Shown piece after piece: positions 10,108 to 41,406 of a DNA stretch of 64,000 nt (the stretch's first letter is position 1; the number at the start of each line of letters is the position of its first letter). A program made the translations under genes and the position numbers. Under the pieces are notes generated by a model. That model saw nothing but the letters and a program-made list of their open reading frames with translations, did no database searches and was not told the DNA's origin. Source of the stretch: Gilvimarinus xylanilyticus (GTDB lineage: Bacteria; Pseudomonadota; Gammaproteobacteria; Pseudomonadales; Cellvibrionaceae); contig NZ_JAMFTH010000002.1 of assembly GCF_024195295.1 (NCBI RefSeq), forward strand, positions 1 through 64,000, in the 5' to 3' direction.

Positions 10108-11247
10108 ATGACAGAGGACGCTCTTTTCGATGTGCACTTCACCGGCAAGGTAAAAACCGGCCACTCCCCCAAGGCCGCTATTGCAGCTTTTGCCAAGCTC
10201 GCGAAAATAGAAACGACCAAGGCCGCGCAACTGGTGAAAAACAACCGCGCGATTAAAAAGTCGGTGAGCTTGGAACGGGCAGAGTCGCTGCGGCAACAAA
10301 TGGAAAAGCTGGGATTGCTGATGGCCATTAAACCGCAGGGCGAAACTATAGCGCCTCAAGCCCCTGATTCTAATACTCAGCCGATCAGTGGTAGTGCCGG
10401 CTTAACCCTGGCGCCCATGGAGCCGACAGAGATGTCACGCGAACAGCAAGCCAGCGACACCGCTACGGACACAGCACAGCAAGAACCCGAGGCGCATACC
10501 CAGGCGTTCACACCCGAAACACAATTGGCAAGCGGCGCAATACGCTACAACAAAACCAACGCCGCAGACGACAGCACCGAGGAGATTTCGCCCTCTACGG
10601 TTAAAATTTTACTCGCCGCTGGCACTGCCGCGCTGCTTGGCGCACTGTTGTGGAAGTTTGTCGCCATAACCTTTGAACTGGAACTGGGACTTCTGGCCTG
10701 GGCGATTGGTGGCATGATTGGCGCAGCGGCCGTTTACTTTGGCGCCGAAGGTGACAACGCCGGTTATCTGTGCGGCGCGCTGGCGCTGGTGGCCATACTC
10801 GGAGGCAAATACTGGGTGGCGTCATCCTTTACCGAGACTTACCTCGCAGAGATGAACAACCACATTACGCAGGAAGAGTTCGATGACTTTATCTCGGTCG
10901 CGCGGGACCAAATTGCACCTTTGCAGGCAGCGCTTGCCAGTGACCGCGCTTTGCGCGAACACATTATTGACAATAATTATGTGGTGGGCGTTAGCCCCTC
11001 GGAAATTCCCGAAGCCACCGTTGCCGAGTTTCGCACCCAATTGCAGGAAGATTTAAATGAAGCGCGCGAGGTGGGTTCGGCAAACACTATCGAAGAGTTC
11101 TCTGAGCAATACGGCCATATTGCCACCTCAGAAATATTTAAAGCGTCGTTTGGCTGGCTGGACTTTTTATTTTTGGGCCTCGGGGTTTATACGGCGTTTA
11201 ATATGGCGCGCAGCGGTTCTTCACCTTTGGGGCGCAAAGCCTATTAG
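10108..11247 (+). CDS. Unrecognised membrane protein
   Basis: A 379-residue protein that I cannot name. A soluble N-terminal module (about 6-76, opening FDVHFTGKVKTGHSP) precedes a polar, Gln/Thr/Glu-rich linker (about 77-160). Three hydrophobic segments follow (about 164-235, containing LLAWAIGGMIGAAAVYFGAEG). A soluble acidic part (about 240-340) and one further helix near 350-368 complete it. The N-terminal module looks like a small folded domain also found fused to other membrane parts in proteobacteria, but I am unsure. It is monocistronic, convergent with phoX, and separated from it by a long hairpin. The start ATG at 10108 comes before any recognisable structure, so the true start could differ slightly. 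Confidence 0.7.
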   Translation: MTEDALFDVHFTGKVKTGHSPKAAIAAFAKLAKIETTKAAQLVKNNRAIKKSVSLERAESLRQQMEKLGLLMAIKPQGETIAPQAPDSNTQPISGSAGLTLAPMEPTEMSREQQASDTATDTAQQEPEAHTQAFTPETQLASGAIRYNKTNAADDSTEEISPSTVKILLAAGTAALLGALLWKFVAITFELELGLLAWAIGGMIGAAAVYFGAEGDNAGYLCGALALVAILGGKYWVASSFTETYLAEMNNHITQEEFDDFISVARDQIAPLQAALASDRALREHIIDNNYVVGVSPSEIPEATVAEFRTQLQEDLNEAREVGSANTIEEFSEQYGHIATSEIFKASFGWLDFLFLGLGVYTAFNMARSGSSPLGRKAY

Positions 11248-11332: not shown

Positions 11333-13312
11333 TTAACTACCAATCACACCGCCATCGTCTTTTGTCACCACCACCGTGGTGGAGCGCGGCCGGGTTACAC
11401 CATCGCTGGCCGGATAACTTAATCCTGGATGCTGCACGTTAAACCACAGGGTTTTGCCATCGGGCGTGCCGGTTAAGCCGGTAATTTCTGCCCCCACCGG
11501 TCCGGTCATAAAGCGTTTTACCTCGCGGGTCACCGGGTCGGCGCACAGCAGCTGATTGGTGCCCTGCCCGGCGTACTCCGGTTCCAGCTCGTCGTAGTCC
11601 GTGGCAATCCACAACCGGCCGTCGCCGTCAAACCAAAGGCCATCGGGGCAGGAAAAGCGGTCGCCTTCCAGTGCGGCAAACTCGCCGGGTTTCGGCTGGG
11701 TTTGCAACACGGGGCCCGCGAGTAGAAACAACTCCCAGTGAAACTTCTCGGCGGCCGGGTTTTGATCGAACTCGCGCCAGCGCAAAATTTGCCCGTGGTC
11801 GTTATCCGCGCGCGGATTAGCGGCGTTCAACGGCTGATCGGGGTCAACCCCACGCTTGTAGTTGTTGGTCAGCGAGACATAGCCGTCGGTGGTTTGCGGA
11901 TGCACCGCGACCCACTCGGGGCGGTCCATAGGGGTTGCCCCCACCACATCGGCAGCGCCGCGCAGATTAATCAATACATCGGCCTGGGTGGCAAAGCCAT
12001 TCTCGGGGGTCAGACCATTTTCGCCTTGCACCAGAGCGCGCCATTCGCCGGTGCCGTCCGCGTGATAAACCGCCACATAAGCGGTGCCTTTATCCAGTAA
12101 ATCGCGATTGGCAGCGGGCGCATCGGCGCGGAATTTACCCTCGGGGACAAATTTATACACATACTCGCCGCGTGTATCGTCGCCGGAATAAAACGCCATA
12201 GTGCCATCGTCAGCCATCACGCAGGTACAGCCCTCGCGCACCAAACGTCCAAGGGCCGTGCGTTTAACCGGACGGGATTCGGGGTCGAACGGATCAAACT
12301 CCACCACCCACCCGAAGCGGTTGGGTTCGTTGACATAACCGCCGCGCTTTTGCTCCGCCTTGGGTGTAGCATCAAAGCGCTCGTCCGCCGACTCCCAATA
12401 GTTGTAGTAACTGTTAGCCTCTGCGGATATGCCATAGCGTTTGTGAGCCGGACGATTTTGCCAGTCCTGCTCGTCGCGGTTAACAAAATAGTTTTTCCAG
12501 TTTTCTTCGCAAATTAAATAAGTCCCCCAGGGCGTAACACCCATCGAGCAATTATTTAACGTCCCCAGAACGCGACGCCCGGTTTCGTCCTGCAGGGTTT
12601 TCATCGCCGCACTGCCCGCCGCCGGCCCGCTGATATCCATTACCGTGTTGGCCGTTAAACGACGGTTATAGTGCGAGGGATACACTTTTTGCCACTGCCC
12701 GTCAGCGTCCTTTTTAATTTCAATGACACTAACACCGTGAGCGGCCTGCTCTTTAAGCACCTCTTGCATGGGGCGCTGCTTTTGCCCTTGCGAATTTTCG
12801 GTAACCGTGGGGCCATTGGGGTGCAAGGTGTCATTGATGTATTCGTGGTTTACCACCAACAACCCGTGCTCATTGGGCGCGTCGGGGAATGGAAAAAAGT
12901 GCATGCCGTCATTGTTCTGCCCGGCTTGCAGCTCTTGCTCGGCGGCGGTGTTACTGGCATCAGAACGCCAATCTGCCGCCCCTTTAACCACCTTATCACC
13001 CCAGGAAAAAAACGGCCGCGCCGTGTAGCCATAGGGCACAGTCACAACGTCTACCTGATCGCCGAGCGCCACTGGCACAGGGGTAAAGCCAATGGTTGGT
13101 CGCAGCGCATCGTTAAAAATGGACGGTGAACTCTGGGTAGTACACCCCGACAATAAAAAAGGCCCGGCGCCGGGCGCCAGGCAAGCAGCCATGGAACCTG
13201 TTACGAAGCGACGTCGTGAACAGGCGAGCTCCCCAAGGGAAGTTCTTTGGGTGGGGTTAACCGCGATATCGTCAATATCGATATCGCGCCCCGTTATTTG
13301 TTTCTCAGTCAT
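11333..13312 (-). CDS. phoX: PhoX-family alkaline phosphatase (Tat-exported)
   Basis: A periplasmic or secreted phosphomonoesterase that frees phosphate from organic esters; characterised PhoX enzymes use calcium and iron. The 659-residue product has a long n-region and a twin-arginine signal at residues 32-37 (SRRRFV) with a hydrophobic stretch to about 57. The DUF839/PhoX core shows NDGMHFFPFPD, NCSMGVTPWGTYLICEENW, FYSGDDTRGEYVYKF and FSCPDGLWFDGDGRLWIATD. Its first 8 bp overlap the 3' end of the phytase gene, so it is the last gene of a receptor-phytase-phoX operon read leftward. A Pho-box promoter in front of the operon predicts induction by phosphate starvation. Confidence 0.9.
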   Translation of the reverse strand: MTEKQITGRDIDIDDIAVNPTQRTSLGELACSRRRFVTGSMAACLAPGAGPFLLSGCTTQSSPSIFNDALRPTIGFTPVPVALGDQVDVVTVPYGYTARPFFSWGDKVVKGAADWRSDASNTAAEQELQAGQNNDGMHFFPFPDAPNEHGLLVVNHEYINDTLHPNGPTVTENSQGQKQRPMQEVLKEQAAHGVSVIEIKKDADGQWQKVYPSHYNRRLTANTVMDISGPAAGSAAMKTLQDETGRRVLGTLNNCSMGVTPWGTYLICEENWKNYFVNRDEQDWQNRPAHKRYGISAEANSYYNYWESADERFDATPKAEQKRGGYVNEPNRFGWVVEFDPFDPESRPVKRTALGRLVREGCTCVMADDGTMAFYSGDDTRGEYVYKFVPEGKFRADAPAANRDLLDKGTAYVAVYHADGTGEWRALVQGENGLTPENGFATQADVLINLRGAADVVGATPMDRPEWVAVHPQTTDGYVSLTNNYKRGVDPDQPLNAANPRADNDHGQILRWREFDQNPAAEKFHWELFLLAGPVLQTQPKPGEFAALEGDRFSCPDGLWFDGDGRLWIATDYDELEPEYAGQGTNQLLCADPVTREVKRFMTGPVGAEITGLTGTPDGKTLWFNVQHPGLSYPASDGVTRPRSTTVVVTKDDGGVIGS

Positions 13313-15188
13313 TCAATTCCAACTCCTGGGCGATATCCGACCAAGATACCAGTTTAAAGTTTTGCGGCCTCTCGGGCATAATATTGTGACCGTCCTGCGC
13401 AATAAAGGCCCCTCGCTCATAGCCCTTACCCAGCGAACGATGGGTCACTTCCAAACCGTCGGTTTCGGAAATGGCATCCACACCGGCGCCATAATTTGCG
13501 CCCACCCGGAATTTACCTACACGCTTGTAAGGCGCGCTGGACTCAAACACCACATAGCTGTCATCGCCCTGACTGGACACAATCAGATAGCGACTATCGA
13601 CCGCCGGGTAAAGCGCCATGCCTTCTACATCGGCCACCAAAACATCGTCGGTCGCTGCAATTAACGATAAAGGCTCGTCGCTGTCGGGTTTAGCCGACAG
13701 GGTATAAACACCCACGGCCTCTTCGCCCACAAACAGTCTTCCCGTGGCATCGTCAGCGACACAACCTTCGGGCTGAGTTTCCACGGCAAAGGTGCGCGCC
13801 AGGCGTGCGGTGACCTTACCTGCGTTCGCACTCAGCAGATACTGCTCGAAGGTACCACTTTTGCCGTTGGCAATGGCGTAGGTTTTAGCGCCATCCTGAT
13901 ACATACAAAAGCCGTAAATCTCTTCGAGCCCGGTGGGCAGCTCAGCCAAATGCGTCGCTGCACCGTTTTCGGCATCGACTCTGTAAATGGACAAAGAATT
14001 GTCATCGCGCTGGGTGGCGACCGCAATATCATCAACGCCATCGCCAAAATCAAAGCCATAGCGGATATCAACATTATTCAGGCGCCCCGTCGGAAGCATC
14101 TGCGATTGCGAGCCATCCAGGCGATAAACCCCCAGACCATACTTTTTGTCGGTGCCGTAAATCAGACTTTGCTCGGGACTAGTAGGGTGAACCCAAATCG
14201 CCGGGTCATCCGCCGCATCGCCAAAGCGGGCCACGGGCTCAGTTTGGATGCGCGGTTTAACGGTTTTAACCTCTGACTCTAGCGCCCGAGAAAAATCAAA
14301 CTCCGCTGCAGCCACAGTAAAGCGGTTGCGCGCATAGTCGCCCGAGGCATCGTCGCGCACTTGCAAATGCAGTGTTTCGCTTTCGGCCTGATACCAGGCC
14401 TGTAACTGTTCGGGCTCCTCAACACCTTTCCAGGTACCCAACTCAACACGCGCCCAGGTGTTGTCCTCGCCCGGTTGATACATTTGCACCAACCCCGAAT
14501 CGACAGTGACCGAAATCACGTTTCCGCCCAAGTAGGCGACCGCTTCGCTGCCTTCACCCAGATTTCCATAAGGTGCGACTAAATCCACCACCTGACGACT
14601 AACGGGTTTTTCGGCATTGGACGAATACCGCCACAGTCCCATTTCTTCCTCGGCGATAAACAAGCCGCCTTTACCGTCGGCCGCGCAAGCGGTGGCGTTG
14701 GGGGCAATGGGTAAGGTGCGAAGCTTGGCAGGCTTTAGTGTTTGCTGCTCGCTGTACACCACCCACTGTTCAGCACTGCCGCGCTCATCCAGCATAAACA
14801 AAGAAACACTGCCGTCAGCTTCGGATGCCAGGCACAAACCCTCTACTAAAAATTCGGGCGCCTGCAGTGAAGCCAAGCGCTCTGCCTGCTTACCCTTGGC
14901 GTTCAACCGATAGAGCACGGGCGTTGATTCCACGCCCTCAATGGCCGCGACTAAAAAGCCGTTATTTACCTGCGCAACATCAACCACCTGCACCGCGCGG
15001 GCGAAGACATCACCGTCGCTAACCGATAGGTTGCTCTGCGCATCAAGCTCTAACCAAAAAGCAGGGTTTCCCTGCTGCAGGGCGGGTACGGATAGGGTGC
15101 TGGTGTCGGCCGATTCTTTGTTAGGCGCAGCGCAAGCACTTAAGCTTACACAAAGCGCAACCGATGCCGCTAAATATTTAACTGTCAT
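13305..15188 (-). CDS. Beta-propeller 3-phytase lipoprotein, two-propeller layout
   Basis: Releases phosphate from phytate (inositol hexakisphosphate). The chosen start at 15188 gives 627 residues and a lipoprotein signal with lipobox SLSAC near residue 18; an in-frame ATG at 15230 would add 14 residues before the signal. The C-terminal half (about 310-625) is a canonical beta-propeller phytase domain: VARFGDAADDPAIWVHP, YGTDKKYGLGVYRLDG, LNNVDIRYGF, then a GVDAISETDGLEV repeat near the end. The N-terminal half (about 35-290) looks like a second, degenerate propeller, as in dual-domain phytases. It overlaps phoX by 8 bp and follows the receptor gene by 48 bp, forming an apparent operon for phytate-phosphate recovery. 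Confidence 0.88.
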   Translation of the reverse strand: MTVKYLAASVALCVSLSACAAPNKESADTSTLSVPALQQGNPAFWLELDAQSNLSVSDGDVFARAVQVVDVAQVNNGFLVAAIEGVESTPVLYRLNAKGKQAERLASLQAPEFLVEGLCLASEADGSVSLFMLDERGSAEQWVVYSEQQTLKPAKLRTLPIAPNATACAADGKGGLFIAEEEMGLWRYSSNAEKPVSRQVVDLVAPYGNLGEGSEAVAYLGGNVISVTVDSGLVQMYQPGEDNTWARVELGTWKGVEEPEQLQAWYQAESETLHLQVRDDASGDYARNRFTVAAAEFDFSRALESEVKTVKPRIQTEPVARFGDAADDPAIWVHPTSPEQSLIYGTDKKYGLGVYRLDGSQSQMLPTGRLNNVDIRYGFDFGDGVDDIAVATQRDDNSLSIYRVDAENGAATHLAELPTGLEEIYGFCMYQDGAKTYAIANGKSGTFEQYLLSANAGKVTARLARTFAVETQPEGCVADDATGRLFVGEEAVGVYTLSAKPDSDEPLSLIAATDDVLVADVEGMALYPAVDSRYLIVSSQGDDSYVVFESSAPYKRVGKFRVGANYGAGVDAISETDGLEVTHRSLGKGYERGAFIAQDGHNIMPERPQNFKLVSWSDIAQELELND

Positions 15189-15236
15189 TTTACTCAACCC
15201 CATAAGCGGCGCCACGCACCGCTGCTGCATTATTTA

Positions 15237-18011
15237 TTAAAAGTTAGTCAAGGTCAGACCCAGCTTAAAGGTAAGCCCATAGCTTTCGTACTGAGCGTTG
15301 TACTGGTTGTCGTTCACATAGGCATAGTAAGGCTCGTCGGTCAAATTAAGCGCCTCAAAATACACTTGCATTCCCTCGGTCAAATAATAGCGCGCCGAGA
15401 AATCCAGCTGGGTTTGCTCATCCACATAAACATCTTCCGCCGCATCGGTCACATCCTGAACTTCCAGCAAGTACTCCGATTTATAGTTGGCGGCCAGGCG
15501 CATATTAAAGCTGGACGCCTCGTAACCAATACTTAAATTACCGGTGGTATCCGACTGGCTGGGCAACTTGCTGTCGCGACTCAGCCAGCCGCCTTCATCG
15601 GCATCGTAATAGCTAAGAGAGGCTTCCGAATCCGAGAAGGTCGCATTGGCCGACAGCAGCAAGCCACTTAACGCACCGGGCAAAAAGTCCATTTGCTTGG
15701 AAAACGCCAACTCAATACCGGACACCTCGGCCGAGTCGCCATTGGCAAAGGTAATGGCTTCATCATAATCACTGTACTGATCGGCGCCTGCCAGATCGGT
15801 TTGATAGATAAAGTTATCAATTTCTTTGTAGTAAATGTAGGCCGAAACGACGCCTGCGACCCCCATGTAGTGTTCAAAACCAAAGTCCAGGTTTTCCGCT
15901 TCCATAGGATCAAGCAGCGGGTTGCCGAATTCGGCCTCTTCATCATCGATAACAAAGTTAGGAGCCAGCTGTTCAAAGTTCGGACGTATCAATGAGTTGG
16001 TCCAGGAACCGCGCAACTGAGTATTTTCGCCGATCGCGTAGCGCGCGTGTACCGATGGGAAAAAGTTATCGTACTGGTTGTCTACTTCAACCGGGGAAAA
16101 CTCATCGCCGTCAAAACGGGTGCCCTTTGAGGAAAACTCGGTATCTTCGTAGCGCACACCGGCAATTAACCGCAAATCGTTCAGATCAATGCGCCCCATC
16201 AGATAGGCAGCCGATACGGTTTCCTCGACATCAAAGTCTTCAATGGTGGAATCTTCTTCGGAGTAAAACTCACTGTCATCTAAACCCGCCAACGAGGCGG
16301 CTACAGCATCGGTGTTAATGCCCGGGCCAAAGTTGCCCAGAGAATAATCCGGTGCGCCCTGGGCATAGCCGCTCAGCAACAGTTGCTCATCACTAAAGCC
16401 GTGCTCATCCAGATCTTCATAAATCCAGATTTCGACATCGTTATCTTTTTCACGGTTGCGGTATTTACCCCCAAACTTTAACTGGGCCGAATGCTGGGCC
16501 ACAAAAAAGTCGCGGGTAATATCCAACTGAAACGACTCTTCACTATCGTCAGTGCCGGATTTAGCTTTCTCGACTTCGTCCATTTCATAGCTATCGCCGG
16601 AAAAGAAGGCGTCGGGAGTGCTCAGGTAAGGCTCGCGGGTATCGCTAAAGGACACATTTGCAAACGCATCGCTGCCAGCAAAAACGGCGCCGCTCACGTG
16701 GCGAGGCTCATCTTCACTGGATTCTGACAGGGCCGCACGGTAATCGATTGTCCAACTGTCCAGTCGCGTGGTACCACCGAGGGCGGTAGACAAAATTTCT
16801 TGTGTTTCTTCGCGGTCTTTGAGCTCGCGCCCTACCTCGGCCACGCCCGCTTCGCCTGCCATCACACCGTCTTCAAATTCAAAGATATTGGCTTGGCGGA
16901 CTTCCGCGTCAGTGTACTTGCTGTACAGGTTACGCCAGTATAGCTCGGTGTTTTCACTCAGTTTGTAATCAAAGTTCAATGTCGCACCTGAGCGCTCGCG
17001 GGTGATTAAGTAATCACGCTGTTCCACTTCTTCTAACAGTGCCCCGTCATCGTCAAAATCCCAGCCGCCACCGGTCTCGACATTATCGGAACCGAACTCG
17101 CGGTCATACCAGCTGATACCGCCGGCAATGCCTAGGTTATCGGTGCCGCTGCCAATGCTAAACTGATCCGATGCGGTGAGTGCCAACTTGGGGCTGGTGC
17201 TTTCGGTCAGCTCGTTGTAGCTGGCCTCGGCAGTGAAAGAGTAAAACATATCGTCGCGATCAAACGCCGACAAACTTTGGATATCAATACTGCCGCCCAG
17301 GGAGTTGGCATCCATATCGGCGGTCAAGGTTTTGCTCACCACCAGGCCTTCCAACAAGTCTGAGGGAATCACGTCCAAAGCAACCGCGCGGCGGCCCGAG
17401 TCGGGGGAAGGCAGGTTAACGCCATTCACTGTTACCGCATTGTAGTCGGGACCCAAACCACGCACACGCACATAGCGACCTTCACCCTGATCTCGCTCAA
17501 TGGACAAACCGGGCAAACGCTGCAACGCTTCGGAGACATTGGTATCCGGAAATTGACCAATGGCGTCGGCGGCCACCGCGCTTACTAAATTGTCCGCTGA
17601 ACGCTGCACGTTAAGCGCTTTGTTCAAGCTGCCCGCTTGGCCCATCACAATCACATACTCTTGCTCGGGGCGTGAGGGCTGAATTTTAAAATCGCTGACC
17701 AGGGTTTTATTGTCTACCACCTCAACGGTGCGCTGCATGGTTTGCACGCCCAGGTAGCTCACGCTCAGAGTATAGCGGCCGGGCTCGATACCCGTCAGGT
17801 TATAGCGGCCGTCGCGGCCGGTCACGGTGCTGACATTTAACTCTTCAATTTTTACCCGGCTGCCCTGCAAGGGTACGCCGCTGATTTCGGTAGTTAGCTG
17901 ACCCGAGATCTGGCCATCGGCCAGAACACTGGCCGATGTGAGTACAGCAATGGCTGAAGCCAGTAATTGGCGACGTACCTGTGGTGCACATTTGGTGGCA
18001 ATAGAGTTCAT
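15237..18011 (-). CDS. TonB-dependent receptor with carboxypeptidase-like N-domain (phytate/organophosphate candidate)
   Basis: A 924-residue outer-membrane receptor. A signal peptide (about 1-31) is followed by a carboxypeptidase-regulatory-like domain (about 33-105, with GRDGRYNLTGIEPGRYTLSV). The plug (about 130-245) contains ALQRLPGLSIERDQGEGRYV and VRGLGPDYNAVTVNG, typical of the Xanthomonas/Caulobacter-type TonB receptor subfamily. The barrel ends at a C-terminal Phe (KLGLTLTNF, two residues before the stop). It is the first gene of the receptor-phytase-phoX operon. Import of phytate, an inositol phosphate or a breakdown product is inferred from the operon partners; the sequence alone does not give the ligand. 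A Pho-box promoter lies about 80 bp upstream of its start. Confidence 0.88.
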   Translation of the reverse strand: MNSIATKCAPQVRRQLLASAIAVLTSASVLADGQISGQLTTEISGVPLQGSRVKIEELNVSTVTGRDGRYNLTGIEPGRYTLSVSYLGVQTMQRTVEVVDNKTLVSDFKIQPSRPEQEYVIVMGQAGSLNKALNVQRSADNLVSAVAADAIGQFPDTNVSEALQRLPGLSIERDQGEGRYVRVRGLGPDYNAVTVNGVNLPSPDSGRRAVALDVIPSDLLEGLVVSKTLTADMDANSLGGSIDIQSLSAFDRDDMFYSFTAEASYNELTESTSPKLALTASDQFSIGSGTDNLGIAGGISWYDREFGSDNVETGGGWDFDDDGALLEEVEQRDYLITRERSGATLNFDYKLSENTELYWRNLYSKYTDAEVRQANIFEFEDGVMAGEAGVAEVGRELKDREETQEILSTALGGTTRLDSWTIDYRAALSESSEDEPRHVSGAVFAGSDAFANVSFSDTREPYLSTPDAFFSGDSYEMDEVEKAKSGTDDSEESFQLDITRDFFVAQHSAQLKFGGKYRNREKDNDVEIWIYEDLDEHGFSDEQLLLSGYAQGAPDYSLGNFGPGINTDAVAASLAGLDDSEFYSEEDSTIEDFDVEETVSAAYLMGRIDLNDLRLIAGVRYEDTEFSSKGTRFDGDEFSPVEVDNQYDNFFPSVHARYAIGENTQLRGSWTNSLIRPNFEQLAPNFVIDDEEAEFGNPLLDPMEAENLDFGFEHYMGVAGVVSAYIYYKEIDNFIYQTDLAGADQYSDYDEAITFANGDSAEVSGIELAFSKQMDFLPGALSGLLLSANATFSDSEASLSYYDADEGGWLSRDSKLPSQSDTTGNLSIGYEASSFNMRLAANYKSEYLLEVQDVTDAAEDVYVDEQTQLDFSARYYLTEGMQVYFEALNLTDEPYYAYVNDNQYNAQYESYGLTFKLGLTLTNF

Positions 18012-18074
18012 GGAAAATCCCCCAATGATCTAAAACAGTGCCAGCAATTGGCCGGCATTTGAAATGTGGGGCAG

Positions 18075-18108
18075 ACAATAAAAAGCCAGCATGACATTTC
18101 TGTGACAG
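18075..18108 (-). promoter_or_regulatory. Pho-box promoter of the receptor-phytase-phoX operon
   Basis: On the minus strand, CTGTCAC-AGAA-ATGTCAT (18108 to 18091) matches the PhoB direct-repeat consensus CTGTCAT-N4-CTGTCAT at 12 of 14 repeat positions. A -10-like TATTGT (18080-18075) follows exactly 10 nt after the second repeat, the spacing seen in PhoB-activated promoters where the Pho box replaces the -35. The receptor start is 63 bp further on. The sequence match is direct; PhoB control is inferred. Confidence 0.75.
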
Positions 18109-18260
18109 GCTTAAGGCAGACCTGCGAAACGCGGTGCTATCAGCGACACTTTGAGCCAATAAGCCCCCGAAGAATAAGGCACACAGGGGTTTGCTCGCCG
18201 TAATTTCTGCAAAAACATACCCGGATCCAAAAACACCCTGAGCTAATATGCCCCTCCCGG

Positions 18261-18294
18261 CTGTCACACAACTGTTACATAAGCTTGATAGTTA
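18261..18294 (+). promoter_or_regulatory. Second Pho-box-like site, facing the GGDEF-AraC pair
   Basis: On the plus strand, CTGTCAC-ACAA-CTGTTAC (18261-18278) matches the PhoB 7-4-7 direct repeat at 11 of 14 positions. A weak -10 candidate (GATAGT or TAGTTA, 18287-18294) lies 8-10 nt downstream, and the GGDEF start is at 18327. With the site at 18091-18108 it puts Pho-box-like elements at both ends of the 315-bp divergent region 18012-18326. I see no gene in that region. Confidence 0.6.
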
Positions 18295-18326
18295 GAAGGC
18301 TCTTTTAGATAACGCGCCGGACTCTC

Positions 18327-19232
18327 ATGATTCGTTTACACAAGTGGAAACTGCTATTCATCGCTGTGCTGACCAATCTCACCATTTTATTAACGCTGGC
18401 GGTGGGTGAGATTAAGTTCTGGCGCGAGATCGACTGGCTGGATATTGTGGCCGAATCGGGGGTTTGTCTGCTGGCCGGACTCTGGCTGGTGTTTACCTTA
18501 AACAGCCGTCCCAAGGGTTCGGTAACCACCTTGCTGGCGCTGGGCCTGGGCTGTATTTTTATCGGCTCGTTTCAAGATTTAATGGACGAAGTAATCGCGA
18601 TTCCCGATGCCAGCCCCTGGCGCGGCAGCATCGAGTCGGTACTCATGCCTGTTGGTCTGATTATTTTAACGCTGGGTTTATACCACTGGCACAAAGAGCA
18701 GCTACTGCTTAGCCAGCAGCGCCAGCGCCAAGAACAAGATTATCGCGATTACCGTTTGCAAGACCGGCTTACCGGACTGGGTGATGCGCGTTTTTTAATG
18801 CAGCAGCTCAGCCAGCTGCAACTGCGCTGTCAGCAACAACACACCCCCCTGGCCATTGTACTGCTGGATTTAGACGACTTTGACACCATCAACCGACGCT
18901 ACGGCCACCGCGAGGGCGACCGTTTGCTGCAAGAGCTGACCGAAGTCTTGCTGCTTAATGTGCGTCGCTGCGACCTGGTGTGCCGCTACGCGGGGGATCG
19001 GTTTGCGGTGCTGCTACCCGGGGCCGGAGAGCAATTGGCACAGCAGCTAGGGGCACAGCTACAAGACGCAGTGGCCCACTTTGCCTACAAAACCACCCGG
19101 GGTGAGACTATTTACCACAGCGCCAGCACCGGGATTGCCACCGACACCGGAACCCCGGCCGACGCATTGCTAACGCTTGCCACCCAACGCCTGCTGCAGG
19201 CGAAGGATTCGCGCACCCCGAGGGTGGCCTAA
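18327..19232 (+). CDS. Membrane GGDEF-domain protein with degenerate active site and intact I-site
   Basis: A 301-residue inner-membrane protein. Hydrophobic segments near 8-26, 43-59, 66-84 and 104-120 precede a short coiled coil (122-142) and a GGDEF domain (145-300). The signature reads AGDRF (222-226) instead of GG(D/E)EF, so the fourth-position acidic residue is Arg. The inhibitory-site motif RxxD is present as RRCD at 213-216, five residues before the signature, as in PleD. DLDDFDTIN (181-189) and GHREGD are retained. It may be a weak or inactive diguanylate cyclase, or a c-di-GMP-binding sensor; activity cannot be decided from sequence. Its stop codon is followed at once by the AraC-family start. 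A Pho-box-like site lies upstream. Confidence 0.85.
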   Translation: MIRLHKWKLLFIAVLTNLTILLTLAVGEIKFWREIDWLDIVAESGVCLLAGLWLVFTLNSRPKGSVTTLLALGLGCIFIGSFQDLMDEVIAIPDASPWRGSIESVLMPVGLIILTLGLYHWHKEQLLLSQQRQRQEQDYRDYRLQDRLTGLGDARFLMQQLSQLQLRCQQQHTPLAIVLLDLDDFDTINRRYGHREGDRLLQELTEVLLLNVRRCDLVCRYAGDRFAVLLPGAGEQLAQQLGAQLQDAVAHFAYKTTRGETIYHSASTGIATDTGTPADALLTLATQRLLQAKDSRTPRVA

Positions 19233-20246
19233 ATGACCCTGTGGTACGAAAACGACACCCCGTGTATTGCCGCCCACGAGTTTCCCGCCGCCCTGATTGA
19301 CTTGGCCTGCAGCCGCGACCTAGAGCCCGACAGACTGTTGCGCGGCACCGGAATTTTTATGGCGGACTTTCTCTCCGCCAGCCTGATTATTAAACCCGTT
19401 CAATGCTACGCCCTGCTGCGCAATATTCAGCGGCTTATGCCCGCCAGCGACACCGCTTTTCTCGCCGGGCACCGATTGTTTCCGGGAAACTTTGGTCCGG
19501 CCAGCACCGCGCTCACTCAGGCGTCTCACTTGCTGGACGCACTGCAAACACTGGAAAACTACAGCGCCCTGTTAAGCCCGCTGCTGCAGCCGCGCCTGTC
19601 ACTGGACAGTGACTTTGTTTACCTCTACTGGCAGGAGAGCTGCGAAGCCAGCGACCAAGGGGCGTTTTTGCGAGATATGCTGATGACTGCCATAACCTCC
19701 CTGTCGCGTCAGCTTTACCAGCAATCGCTCCCCTGGGAGTACTTTCTGCCCGGCGAGCTCACTCACCCGGAACAATACTCGGTGAACTGGGGCCCGCGCG
19801 TTTACTCAAAACGTCACATCACCGCCATGCGCTTGCCCCGCGAACTGGCCACCCAGAATACCCCTATGGCCACTACCAGCGCGGCCACTATTGCCAAACG
19901 CCAGTGTGAAGTATTGTTTAAGGACAAGCCTAGTGAAGGGTTTATCAGCCATATCGATCAGCGCATTCGCCGCAGCATACCCGGCCATGTCAGTTTGGAA
20001 TCACTGGCCCAGGCGCTGGAGGTCAGCCCCGCCACCCTAAAGCGCAAACTGAAAAAACATCACACCCACTTTCAACAGCGCTACGATAACGTGCGCAAAG
20101 AGCTGGCCATTGAGTGGTTAACCCGCCAGGAGCTAAGCGTAGAAGACATTGCCGCCCGCCTGCACTTTCACGATAGCCGCAACCTGCGCCGCGCCTTCAA
20201 ACGCTGGACCGGTGTATTGCCCAGTGCGCTCAGCGCTTCGGTTTAA
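19233..20246 (+). CDS. AraC-family transcriptional regulator
   Basis: A 337-residue regulator with an N-terminal ligand/oligomerisation region of the arabinose-binding-like type (about 10-200) and a C-terminal double helix-turn-helix (about 235-335). The latter includes SLESLAQALEVSPATLKRKL and SVEDIAARLHFHDSRNLRRAFK, the usual AraC DNA-binding pattern. The ATG follows the GGDEF stop with no gap (TAAATG), so the two are translationally coupled. The target is unknown; the neighbouring receptor-phytase-phoX operon is the obvious candidate. This N-terminal type (also seen in OruR and ArgR-like regulators) often senses small metabolites. Confidence 0.88.
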   Translation: MTLWYENDTPCIAAHEFPAALIDLACSRDLEPDRLLRGTGIFMADFLSASLIIKPVQCYALLRNIQRLMPASDTAFLAGHRLFPGNFGPASTALTQASHLLDALQTLENYSALLSPLLQPRLSLDSDFVYLYWQESCEASDQGAFLRDMLMTAITSLSRQLYQQSLPWEYFLPGELTHPEQYSVNWGPRVYSKRHITAMRLPRELATQNTPMATTSAATIAKRQCEVLFKDKPSEGFISHIDQRIRRSIPGHVSLESLAQALEVSPATLKRKLKKHHTHFQQRYDNVRKELAIEWLTRQELSVEDIAARLHFHDSRNLRRAFKRWTGVLPSALSASV

Positions 20247-20689: not shown

Positions 20690-21673
20690 ATGGCCAAAAT
20701 TCGTTGGGGTGTACTCAGCACCGCTAAAATTGCCCGTGAACACGTTATTCCCGCCCTGCAAAGCTCATCGTTAGGTGAAGTGGTCGCCATTGCGTCGCGC
20801 CGCCCCGAGCAGGCACAACAGACAGCGGCCGCCTTGGGCATTGCCCGCGCTCATGACAGCTACGAAGCGCTGCTGGCCGACCCCGAGGTAGACGCCATCT
20901 ACAACCCGCTGCCCAACCACCTGCATGTGCCCTGGTCAATCAAAACCATGCAAGCGGGCAAGCATGTGCTGGTGGAAAAGCCTCTGGGACTGGACGCCAG
21001 CGACGCGCAAAAACTCTTACAGGCCTGCGCAGACTACCCGGACATTAAAGTCATGGAAGCGTTTATGTACCGCTTTCACCCCCAGTGGCAGCAAATACGC
21101 GAGCTGTGCGACAAGGTGATTGGCCCGGTGCGCAATATTCAGTGCGAGTTTTCCTACAATAATCGCGACGCTAGCAATATTCGCAACAATGCCGATATGG
21201 GCGGCGGTGCGCTGATGGATATTGGCTGTTACGGCGTCTCCCTGTCGCGCTTTATTTACCAGAGCGAACCCACCCGGGTGTGCGGCCACATGAACTTTAT
21301 GAACTACGAGGTAGACGCGATTACCTCAGCCATTATGGCGTTTAGCGAGGGTACAGGTAGTTTTAGCTGCTCCACCAAAACCGAGCCGGGCCAGTGGGCC
21401 AAAATCTGCGGCGAGGCGGGCTTTATCAGCATTCCCCGGCCGTTCAACCCCACCGCCGACAGCGAAGCCCAGATTACGGTGCAGCACAACGATCAGACTG
21501 AAACCATCACCCTGGCACCGGCCAACCAATACCGGGCCATGGGCGATCACTTTTGCGATGCCATACTGCACAACAAACCAGTGCCCACACCACTGCAAGA
21601 CGGGGTGAATAATATGAAGGTGATTGATCGTATTATTGCCAGCGCTAAAGCGGGGCAGTGGGTGGACGTCTAA
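20690..21673 (+). CDS. Gfo/Idh/MocA-family NAD(P)-dependent oxidoreductase
   Basis: A 327-residue cytoplasmic dehydrogenase. The N-terminal Rossmann domain (about 3-120) begins IRWGVLSTAKIAREHVIPAL, and the family hallmark EKPLGLD occurs near 96-102. The C-terminal half is the substrate-binding alpha/beta domain (GGGALMDIGCYGVSLSRF, near 172-189). These enzymes oxidise or reduce sugars, inositols or related polyols; the substrate is not evident. Inositol would fit a phytate-using cell, but nothing in the sequence shows it. The MITE-like element separates it from the AraC gene, and the stop codon lies inside a heptamer repeat array. Confidence 0.85.
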   Translation: MAKIRWGVLSTAKIAREHVIPALQSSSLGEVVAIASRRPEQAQQTAAALGIARAHDSYEALLADPEVDAIYNPLPNHLHVPWSIKTMQAGKHVLVEKPLGLDASDAQKLLQACADYPDIKVMEAFMYRFHPQWQQIRELCDKVIGPVRNIQCEFSYNNRDASNIRNNADMGGGALMDIGCYGVSLSRFIYQSEPTRVCGHMNFMNYEVDAITSAIMAFSEGTGSFSCSTKTEPGQWAKICGEAGFISIPRPFNPTADSEAQITVQHNDQTETITLAPANQYRAMGDHFCDAILHNKPVPTPLQDGVNNMKVIDRIIASAKAGQWVDV

Positions 21674-40275: not shown

Positions 40276-41406
40276 ATGACTGTTTACCAGTACTGCACCC
40301 GCCGCCCCCTGCTTTGTATTTGTACGCTCGCACTTTTGTGCCTGGGCTTGCTGGGCGCGTGGCTGACCATACACTTCGCCGCCGAGCAACAAGACGCCGC
40401 GGCGACCCGCTATGGCCAGGCCCTGGCCGACCGCGCCTCTTCTCAGGCCGTAGAGCCGTCCATCGCCCAGGATATGATCAGCCTGCAGGTGATTTTACAG
40501 TCCCTGGCACGCCAGCCGGGCGTTAGCAGTGCCACGGTGCACGATGTGGAAAACAACCTGTTGGTGCAGGCGGGCGCCGCTCAGGCTCCCGCCGATATGA
40601 ACAGCGCCAGTTTTGCCGCGCCCATCACTCTGGATACTCACATCGCGGGCCACTTAACGGTAAACCTGAGCCTACCGCCGGTGCAGCGCACCTACACCTC
40701 TTATTTTTGGCTTTGGGCCTTGGCGGTGCTGGCTTGCATCGCCGGACTGTGGGGCGCGGACTATTACCGCGAGCGTCCGCGTAAACCCGCCAAAGCCCGT
40801 CGCCCCAAACCCCGGGCCGAACCAGAAGCGTCCACCCACGAAGAGGTCTTTGCCGCCGATGGCGACGATGCCCTGCCCGATGGTGAGGACGACGAGGCCC
40901 ACGACGAGCCCGATACCAGCGCCGAGGTAAGCGTAGAGCTGCGCTTTTTGAATCTGCGCGCGCTGGAGCAACAGCTGAGTAAGGGCGAATACGAGCTGCG
41001 CCTAAACCGCTTTAAGCAGCAATTGCAGGGTATTCTGGCGCTGTATACTGGCCATCAGCAATCGTTCGACGAGCAAAGCTTGCGTCTGAGTGCAACCGCC
41101 GACACCCGCTCTAATGCGATTTTTTACGCGGTGTGTATCAGCGAGCTGGCGGTCAGCCTGTGCCAAAGCGGCGAGAGCCCGCGTTTAAAAGTGGCCGCCT
41201 GCATCGACACTCACGACGGTGACGCGGCGCCCGAGCTTTCCGCCTACGCAATTTGGTTAACGCCCGAGCTGCAAGACAGTGCGCTGTCGGGCTACATTAA
41301 CCTGAGCGACGAGAATTTGGTGGAAGAAATAAAGCCGCCCTACAAGGCGTTACTGGAACGCCAGCAAACTCAGCTTTTGGCCCTACCTGTCACGCGGCGG
41401 TCATAA
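40276..41406 (+). CDS. Smp/YtjB-like membrane protein with cytoplasmic C-terminal domain
   Basis: A 376-residue protein. One helix (about 11-33), a periplasmic loop (about 34-138) and a second helix (about 142-162) give the layout of E. coli Smp (YtjB), also encoded divergently from serB. Beyond that it has a basic stretch, a strongly acidic linker (about 190-220) and a C-terminal domain (about 224-370) that looks like a degenerate nucleotide-cyclase-type alpha/beta fold (SVELRFLNLRALEQQLSKGE). E. coli Smp is much shorter and lacks this domain. The function is unknown in both. The start is ATG 40276, with a TAGAAT -10 candidate at 40240-40245. Confidence 0.75.
   Translation: MTVYQYCTRRPLLCICTLALLCLGLLGAWLTIHFAAEQQDAAATRYGQALADRASSQAVEPSIAQDMISLQVILQSLARQPGVSSATVHDVENNLLVQAGAAQAPADMNSASFAAPITLDTHIAGHLTVNLSLPPVQRTYTSYFWLWALAVLACIAGLWGADYYRERPRKPAKARRPKPRAEPEASTHEEVFAADGDDALPDGEDDEAHDEPDTSAEVSVELRFLNLRALEQQLSKGEYELRLNRFKQQLQGILALYTGHQQSFDEQSLRLSATADTRSNAIFYAVCISELAVSLCQSGESPRLKVAACIDTHDGDAAPELSAYAIWLTPELQDSALSGYINLSDENLVEEIKPPYKALLERQQTQLLALPVTRRS

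Follow-up and report, generated by a model that had tools for sequence, protein, structure and literature searches.

How is phytate scavenging controlled in the marine bacterium Gilvimarinus xylanilyticus? The question is raised by a 64,000-nucleotide stretch of its genome (positions 1 to 64,000 of contig NZ_JAMFTH010000002.1, assembly GCF_024195295.1; hereafter the window), in which two operons diverge from a gap of 315 bp. One encodes a TonB-dependent receptor, a phytase and a PhoX-type phosphatase, and the other a membrane protein with a GGDEF-like domain and an AraC-family regulator. The gap holds a Pho box facing each operon and, between the two boxes, two copies of a 15-bp direct repeat whose occurrence across genomes follows that of the regulator gene. 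We consider it probable, from sequence comparison, that the locus is a two-input module in which PhoB and the AraC regulator together control phytate scavenging. Its features are as follows, from left to right (nt, nucleotides; aa, amino acids; ORF, open reading frame; E, expectation value; HTH, helix-turn-helix).

11333-13312, minus strand: alkaline phosphatase of the PhoX type (659 aa), encoded third in the scavenging operon (PF05787, E 3e-156)
13305-15188 (longest ORF to 15230), minus strand: dual beta-propeller phytase, likely a lipoprotein (PF02333, E 4e-87, residues 307-638)
15237-18011, minus strand: TonB-dependent receptor, encoded first in the scavenging operon, with a CarboxypepD_reg domain at its N-terminus (PF00593, PF07715, PF13620; TIGR01782, 609.6 bits)
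18080-18075, minus strand: TATTGT, putative receptor-promoter -10 hexamer, 10 nt past Pho box 1
18108-18091, minus strand: Pho box 1, facing the receptor-phytase-PhoX operon, CTGTCAC-AGAA-ATGTCAT, 13/14
18152-18167, plus strand: putative AraC box, copy 1, TGAGCCAATAAGCCCC, 43 nt from Pho box 1
18239-18254, plus strand: putative AraC box, copy 2, TGAGCTAATATGCCCC, directly upstream of Pho box 2 and the genome's only perfect match to the pattern used
18261-18278, plus strand: Pho box 2, facing the GGDEF-AraC operon, CTGTCAC-ACAA-CTGTTAC, 13/14
18286-18294, plus strand: TGA-TAGTTA, a weak and uncertain extended -10 for the GGDEF-AraC operon, with its hexamer 10 nt past Pho box 2
18327-19232, plus strand: membrane GGDEF-like protein with a degenerate active site, AGDRF, and an I-site, RRCD, that is kept (PF00990, E 6e-34)
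19233-20246, plus strand: AraC-family regulator, starting immediately after the GGDEF stop codon (PF12625, E 9e-15; HTH_18, PF12833, E 3e-16)

Are the Pho boxes likely to be real PhoB sites? A Pho box is described as two 11-nt units of 7 + 4 nucleotides (PMC9414882), and the boxes were scored over 14 positions against the consensus CTGTCAY-N4-CTGTCAY, with the reversed pattern as control. The initial annotation, made from the letters of the window, had reported both boxes, and TATTGT at 10 nt past the first, and these were confirmed; a further repeat, at 18102-18119 (12/14), overlaps Pho box 1. Both boxes also rank among the 14 best in the genome. A scan of its 3.93 Mb at one mismatch or fewer returned 14 matches, against two for the reversed pattern, and two of the 14 fall within the 315-bp gap. 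At three mismatches or fewer the pattern is not enriched (608 matches, compared with 647 for the control), and therefore only the top-scoring sites are meaningful. Of the other 12, five stand at credible promoters, those of PhoD, PstS, polyphosphate kinase, a porin and an EAL protein; in two of these cases, PhoD and the porin, the box lies within the longest ORF call yet upstream of a later start codon, and the pstS and ppk boxes, too, have TAnnnT exactly 10 nt downstream. Four are within ORFs (L113, L114, L117, L118), one (L115) is at the 5' end of an oppositely read cytochrome gene, about 300 nt ahead of a sulfatase-family gene, one (L145) has no ORF of at least 90 codons starting within 400 nt, and one, at 41387, is at the 3' end of a window ORF. 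The genome encodes a PhoB equivalog (C13:22101; TIGR02154, 365 bits, cut-off 296). As PhoB sites the two boxes appear well supported, that on the receptor side best.

The initial annotation also overlooked how widespread the arrangement is. Among 80 phytase loci from named genomes, taken as the best of 536 relatives and thus not a random sample, the AraC and GGDEF genes diverge from the receptor and phytase genes in 71, the other nine ending at a contig edge. These loci are mostly from Pseudomonas and Stutzerimonas, with others from Gilvimarinus, Alcanivorax, Methylophaga, Massilia, Herminiimonas and Methylotenera; the closest is that of G. chinensis, at 73% identity, and the gap regions of its record and of a same-genus genome (L003 and L031) duplicate each other. 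A survey of 144 genomes of the family found an orthologue of the GGDEF gene (E ≤2.1e-34) in 43, all of which have a PF02333 phytase, within about 6 kb on the same contig in 39 and on another contig in four. The orthologue is absent from the other 45 phytase genomes of the family, 44 of which belong to one genus, here called g22. The AraC gene starts no more than 20 nt from the end of the GGDEF gene, or overlaps it, in 100 of 113 loci (duplicates included), as is seen for partner proteins. In two loci of genus g23 (L127, L130) the module is rearranged, with a second AraC-like gene flanking the phytase gene and a PhoX homologue beyond the AraC gene.

The promoters were compared in 104 distinct loci, ranging from Gilvimarinus to Pseudomonas and Massilia, after nine duplicate loci had been removed; 3120 shuffles served as control, with regions longer than 700 nt cut to 700. 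Both sites and the gene order are kept in relatives, so that the initial annotation survives its own check on conservation as it did that on genome-wide rank. A receptor-facing Pho box of at least 11/14 is present in 91 of the 104 loci (shuffled expectation 4.6%), and 83 of those 91 have TAnnnT exactly 10 nt past it, which no shuffle reproduced (0/3120). A GGDEF-facing box of the same quality is present in 84 loci (1.6% of shuffles). The complete order of receptor, Pho box, AraC box, Pho box and GGDEF gene, with all elements, is found in 69 of the 104, again with 0/3120 in the shuffles. When each locus is set against its own shuffles at 0.05, the GGDEF-facing box is significant in 87 loci and the receptor-facing box in 77. 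Grouping by lineage (15 lineages, covering 94 of the 104 loci) shows that the receptor promoter holds in 11, the GGDEF-side box in 12 and the AraC box in 12. That Pseudomonas has no receptor-facing Pho box was considered and rejected; a scan of the full gap found the box, which had seemed absent because the receptor start had been extrapolated by about 117 residues.

What site might the AraC regulator itself use? The initial annotation had passed over a 15-bp direct repeat, TGAGCYRAWWYGMCC, of which the window has copies at 18152 and 18239, in the interval flanked by the Pho boxes. The repeat is asymmetric and about 15 bp long, and AraC-type operators are asymmetric and about 15-17 bp long. 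A match of at least 14/15 occurs in 92 of the 104 loci, compared with 0.3% of shuffles, and two copies occur in 64 of 104, compared with 0/3120. Scored at 13/15 or better, the box is found in 94 of the 101 loci with an AraC gene (three of the 104 have no receptor match) and in none of 24 TonB-phytase loci without one, and therefore the repeat follows the regulator gene and not the phytase. These 24 control loci come from genome G003 and from 23 of the 44 g22 genomes with a phytase. They count as lacking AraC when tblastn at 1e-5 gave no match in the stretch examined, for most loci 6.5 kb; L137 and L173 do show a generic GGDEF match, at 29-31%. In genus g22 (L135-L137, L156-L175) the receptor-phytase operon diverges from a PhoX homologue in 22 of the 23 loci, with no AraC gene. 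Within the regulator, the two recognition helices are conserved at 0.85 and 0.83, compared with 0.62 for the N-terminal part (24 sequences, with helix limits set by the analyst). The comparison thus lends strong support to the repeat as the likely AraC operator.

Elsewhere in the genome, one mismatch or fewer yields two places besides the window copies. One, at C1:1190143, falls within an ORF and was rejected as a further AraC site. The other (G000:C10:110874-110889; L142, L148-L150) is a 15/16 box upstream of a choice-of-anchor I gene. Two close relatives of the window species have it too, and in the remaining five of the eight genus members no match reaches 14/16. By eye, this promoter also has Pho-like units, with TAGGCT 10 nt past the last, and the gene is a possible second target of the regulator.

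Spacing was compared in loci whose Pho box scored at least 11/14 and whose AraC box, no more than 80 nt away, scored at least 13/15; these were 75 of the 104 loci for Pho box 1 with AraC box 1 and 70 for AraC box 2 with Pho box 2. In 67 of the 75 the first gap is 32, 43-44 or 53-54 nt, and in 64 of the 70 the second is 6-8, 18-19, 29, 39-41 or 51 nt. With a 10.5-bp turn and each gap counted once per group, the phase coherence is 0.79 for the first pair (reached by 0/2000 random sets) and 0.53 for the second (p 0.001). Whatever the source of the stepping, AraC boxes and Pho boxes tend to lie on one face of the DNA.

Spacing bears also on whether the regulator activates or represses. It could be that AraC hides the promoters until an inducer arrives and that PhoB supplies the activation, which we judge unlikely. 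In 40 of the 70 loci AraC box 2 precedes Pho box 2 by just 6-8 nt, near enough to interfere, and two distant boxes could form a loop; the boxes lie upstream of the Pho box and the -10, however, and not over them, and the distance from one AraC box to the other shows no clear phasing (p 0.11-0.12), which weighs against looping. A loop between the two AraC boxes was rejected for the same reason.

Could PhoB do without the regulator altogether? In that case PhoB alone would drive both operons, the repeat would be bound by another protein or be structural, and AraC would regulate something else. The receptor-side Pho box does stand in the canonical activating position in most loci, and TonB-phytase loci without AraC do exist: 22 of the 24 examined have an adjoining PhoX homologue, and six (L137, L158, L170, L171, L174, L175) have a box of 10-11/14 with TAnnnT at exactly 10 nt, so that AraC is not required for such an operon. 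This explanation is, however, at odds with the way in which the repeat tracks the AraC gene (94/101 against 0/24) and keeps phase with the Pho boxes, and it agrees poorly with two sets of published data. A 2016 study of three Pseudomonas strains, SBW25 and DSM4166 among them, found no evidence of PhoBR regulation of phytases, which fell unexpectedly outside the Pho regulon; its authors proposed that phytases answer substrate only (PMC5082522). Such behaviour is expected if starvation is insufficient without the AraC signal. In P. syringae pv. phaseolicola, bean leaf extract induced the phytase PSPPH_2990 3.2-fold and the AraC regulator PSPPH_2994 2.3-fold; the authors connect the phytase with the extract's phytate, and the AraC gene falls in their unassigned group (PMC2803797). 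Both genes probably belong to the module, which in P. amygdali (L057) has AraC, GGDEF, receptor and phytase genes in a row. We regard control by PhoB alone as improbable.

A number of points weigh against two-input control, or limit how far it can be taken. M9 medium is phosphate-rich, and induction of the P. syringae genes in it implies that substrate alone can act, making a strict AND gate unlikely; the assignment of those genes to the module is itself drawn from locus numbers and the L057 gene order, and the comparison with SBW25 and DSM4166 presumes that both strains carry the module. On the side of the sites, 17 of the 104 loci do not pass the Pho box shuffle test at 0.05 for the GGDEF-facing box and 27 do not for the receptor-facing box, and the GGDEF-side promoter has TAnnnT at 10 nt in just seven of 84 loci and not in the window, TGnT being common there. 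Some of the loci tested had themselves supplied the AraC consensus, which was read off by eye; the AraC pattern at three mismatches or fewer is only mildly enriched in the window's own genome (340 matches, compared with 260 for the control), and the window 16-mer alone performs less well, reaching p ≤0.05 in 79 and p ≤0.01 in 54 of the 104 loci. Nine of the 104 have no box of 13/15, five of them (L021-L024, L026) from a single genus of the family, g24, and the others being L029, L102, L128 and L129. Seven receptor promoters have a gap of 25-26 nt, about half a turn off, and a scan that picks the best pair within arrays of 11-bp repeats may itself produce 11-bp steps. More generally, what sequence shows directly is the genes, the sites, their conservation and spacing and the way in which the repeat accompanies the regulator gene; from these, binding by PhoB and AraC, activation, the inducer and the part played by the GGDEF-like protein are inferred.

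We nonetheless favour control by PhoB and AraC together, which could work as follows. Each divergent promoter has its Pho box, and the receptor-side one stands where an activating site classically does, the -10 hexamer following after 10 nt; each promoter would also have an upstream operator for the AraC regulator encoded in one of the two operons. Phosphate starvation, acting through PhoB, would raise both the harvesting operon, with its TonB receptor, lipoprotein phytase and PhoX, and the regulator operon, with the GGDEF-like protein and AraC. AraC carrying its signal, most likely phytate or a breakdown product, would bind the two boxes and, together with PhoB, activate the harvesting operon and its own.

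By domain membership the PF02333 protein is a beta-propeller phytase; its second propeller gives a weak match at 14577-14813, under the cut-off. Its likely start is 15188, a Met preceding a lipoprotein-like leader, MTVKYLAASVALCVSLSAC, with a lipobox-like LSAC. Given that start, the 48-bp receptor-phytase gap of the initial annotation is correct, the longest ORF call (15230) leaving 6 bp, and the gene coordinates bear out its 8-bp phytase/PhoX overlap and 315-bp divergent region. The PhoX protein has a leader motif, SRRRF, which we take to be twin-arginine-like. The regulator carries, by its domain matches, the C-terminal double HTH of AraC type; its structure model (pLDDT 92) has the AraC-family fold, and its best solved matches include VirS and, nearest, CdpR of Pseudomonas aeruginosa (PDB 5chh), from which it differs in sequence, with 19% identity over the Foldseek alignment.

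What, then, of the GGDEF-like protein? The initial annotation had supposed that, if both boxes work, starvation would switch on importer, phosphatases, regulator and a c-di-GMP-type (cyclic di-GMP) protein together. Of this joint switch the sites, both top-ranked in the genome and conserved together with the gene order, remain; that a c-di-GMP enzyme is switched on is not supported. With AGDRF the window protein fails the GG(D/E)EF active-site criterion for a diguanylate cyclase, and it is not alone. An alignment of 101 rows (94 distinct loci, duplicates included), obtained from 110 loci, has AGDRF in 98 rows, AGDRY in two and AGERF in one, and the fourth motif position is Arg in 101/101 rows and in 10/10 distant homologues (L125-L134, 30-41% identity).

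It is highly improbable, in our judgement, that this is an active or conditionally active cyclase through which starvation raises c-di-GMP. Residues presumed to bind guanine and metal are mostly retained (N189 in 97/101 rows, D181 in 101/101 and Asp or Glu at position 224 in 101/101), and two distant homologues (L133, L134) have Gly restored at the first motif position. Moreover, AGDEF, changed at the first position alone, is active in Vibrio cholerae VCA0965 (PMC3974145). In that same protein, however, the change of AGDEF to AGDAF abolished c-di-GMP synthesis (PMC3974145), and therefore Arg at the fourth position predicts no synthesis. With Arg at this position in all 111 homologues, the protein as an active cyclase was rejected, and it is unlikely, from its sequence, to be a c-di-GMP producer.

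Other parts of the protein are as strictly kept as the Arg. Six acidic residues of the membrane part, D39, E43, D84, D87, E88 and E103, are invariant in 101/101 rows and in 10/10 distant homologues. The structure model (mean pLDDT 86, pTM 0.51) has four N-terminal helices, the last running on as a long linker, and from the helix order the six residues would lie at the periplasmic ends of the helices. The I-site is less constant: R213 and D216 are present in 101/101 rows and RxxD in 5/10 distant homologues, making 106 of 111, and the I-site as a universal feature was rejected because the other five have lost it. In the most distant homologues, L131-L134 (30-38% identity), the I-site is lost and the Arg and the six acidic residues are kept. 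With these invariant and RxxD in half of the distant homologues, a c-di-GMP reading would apply at most to part of the family.

We read the GGDEF-like protein as a dead-cyclase sensor serving AraC, a catalytically dead membrane partner that would most likely relay a periplasmic signal to the regulator and, in many species, perhaps a c-di-GMP signal also. A bolder and, to us, rather doubtful proposal is that it represents a new class of membrane co-regulators of AraC, whose four-helix acidic residues sense a divalent cation or metal-phytate and gate AraC via the dead cyclase domain, with c-di-GMP as a further input where the I-site is kept, PhoB in Gilvimarinus also seeming to raise an EAL phosphodiesterase; the loss of the I-site in five of the ten distant homologues lowers its probability.

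Away from the phytate locus, the genome encodes an EAL-CBS-GGDEF protein (G000:C1:1369800-1371286; L143, L176-L182) with the EAL motif GYEALIRGP. Its gene (C1:1371269) has a Pho box of 11-13/14 with GATAAT, GATACT or GACAAT at exactly 10 nt in 7/7 Gilvimarinus genomes, the eighth genome searched having no match to the gene at 1e-80. It seems, from these sequences, to be a candidate PhoB-controlled c-di-GMP phosphodiesterase of Gilvimarinus.

How does the proposed module compare with systems already described? In V. cholerae, PhoB controls c-di-GMP enzymes; the likeness is that starvation touches c-di-GMP proteins, and the difference is that the GGDEF protein of the phytate locus looks dead. 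Degenerate GGDEF receptors such as PopA, PelD, CdgA of Bdellovibrio and SgmT (PMC3974145) similarly have a broken active-site motif, and RxxD is present in the window protein as in most of its homologues. Unlike them, the window protein has a four-helix membrane N-terminus with no Pfam match, invariant acidic residues and an AraC operon partner; five distant homologues have lost the I-site, and c-di-GMP binding is putative. A close regulatory parallel is the control of 2-aminoethylphosphonate use by PhoBR and AepR in Pseudomonas putida BIRD-1 (PMC9311074), which likewise joins global starvation to a substrate-linked local regulator. AepR is described there as LysR-type, in a system that also answers C and N starvation, whereas the phytate regulator is AraC-type, shares an operon with a membrane GGDEF-like protein and has both kinds of site at both divergent promoters. 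Fjoh_1367/1368 of Flavobacterium johnsoniae also place a PF02333 phytase beside a TonB-dependent transporter and are induced by phosphate depletion; where that report describes the phytase and transporter, it mentions no AraC or GGDEF partner (PMC8115612).

A few further observations concern the surroundings of the locus and other parts of the genome. Downstream of the AraC gene, at 20690-21673 of the window, lies a gene for a Gfo/Idh/MocA oxidoreductase, which follows the AraC gene in Gilvimarinus generally and also in G022. The protein is similar to inositol and xylose dehydrogenases, far under the family cut-offs, and its assignment as an inositol dehydrogenase was rejected (iolG model TIGR04380, 107.5 bits, compared with a cut-off of 355). 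A scan of the neighbouring gene at 10108-11247 against defence families gave no match. At G000:C1:43411 (L119) a BlaI/BlaR1-type gene pair diverges from a TonB-receptor plug-domain gene, with a Pho-like box (12/14) and TAAGAT at 10 nt.

Phytase genes beside TonB receptor genes are said to have been noted before, by Lim et al. in 2007. Starvation combined with a local regulator is a known kind of control; what seems to be new is a variation on it, in how the genes and sites are arranged and in the dead GGDEF partner. No open-access paper among the matches listed describes the module, its AraC box or the AGDRF protein, most subscription papers being outside that scope. For the operator candidate, the regulator and the conserved dead GGDEF partner that comparison provides, the open-access literature searched gave, in the matches listed, no link to phytate.

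In some soils, phytate is a major source of organic phosphorus (PMC5082522). The layout described here may explain why phytase genes can seem to ignore starvation alone: Pho boxes are present, and with an AraC regulator and its likely operator on the same promoters, starvation without a substrate signal should not suffice.

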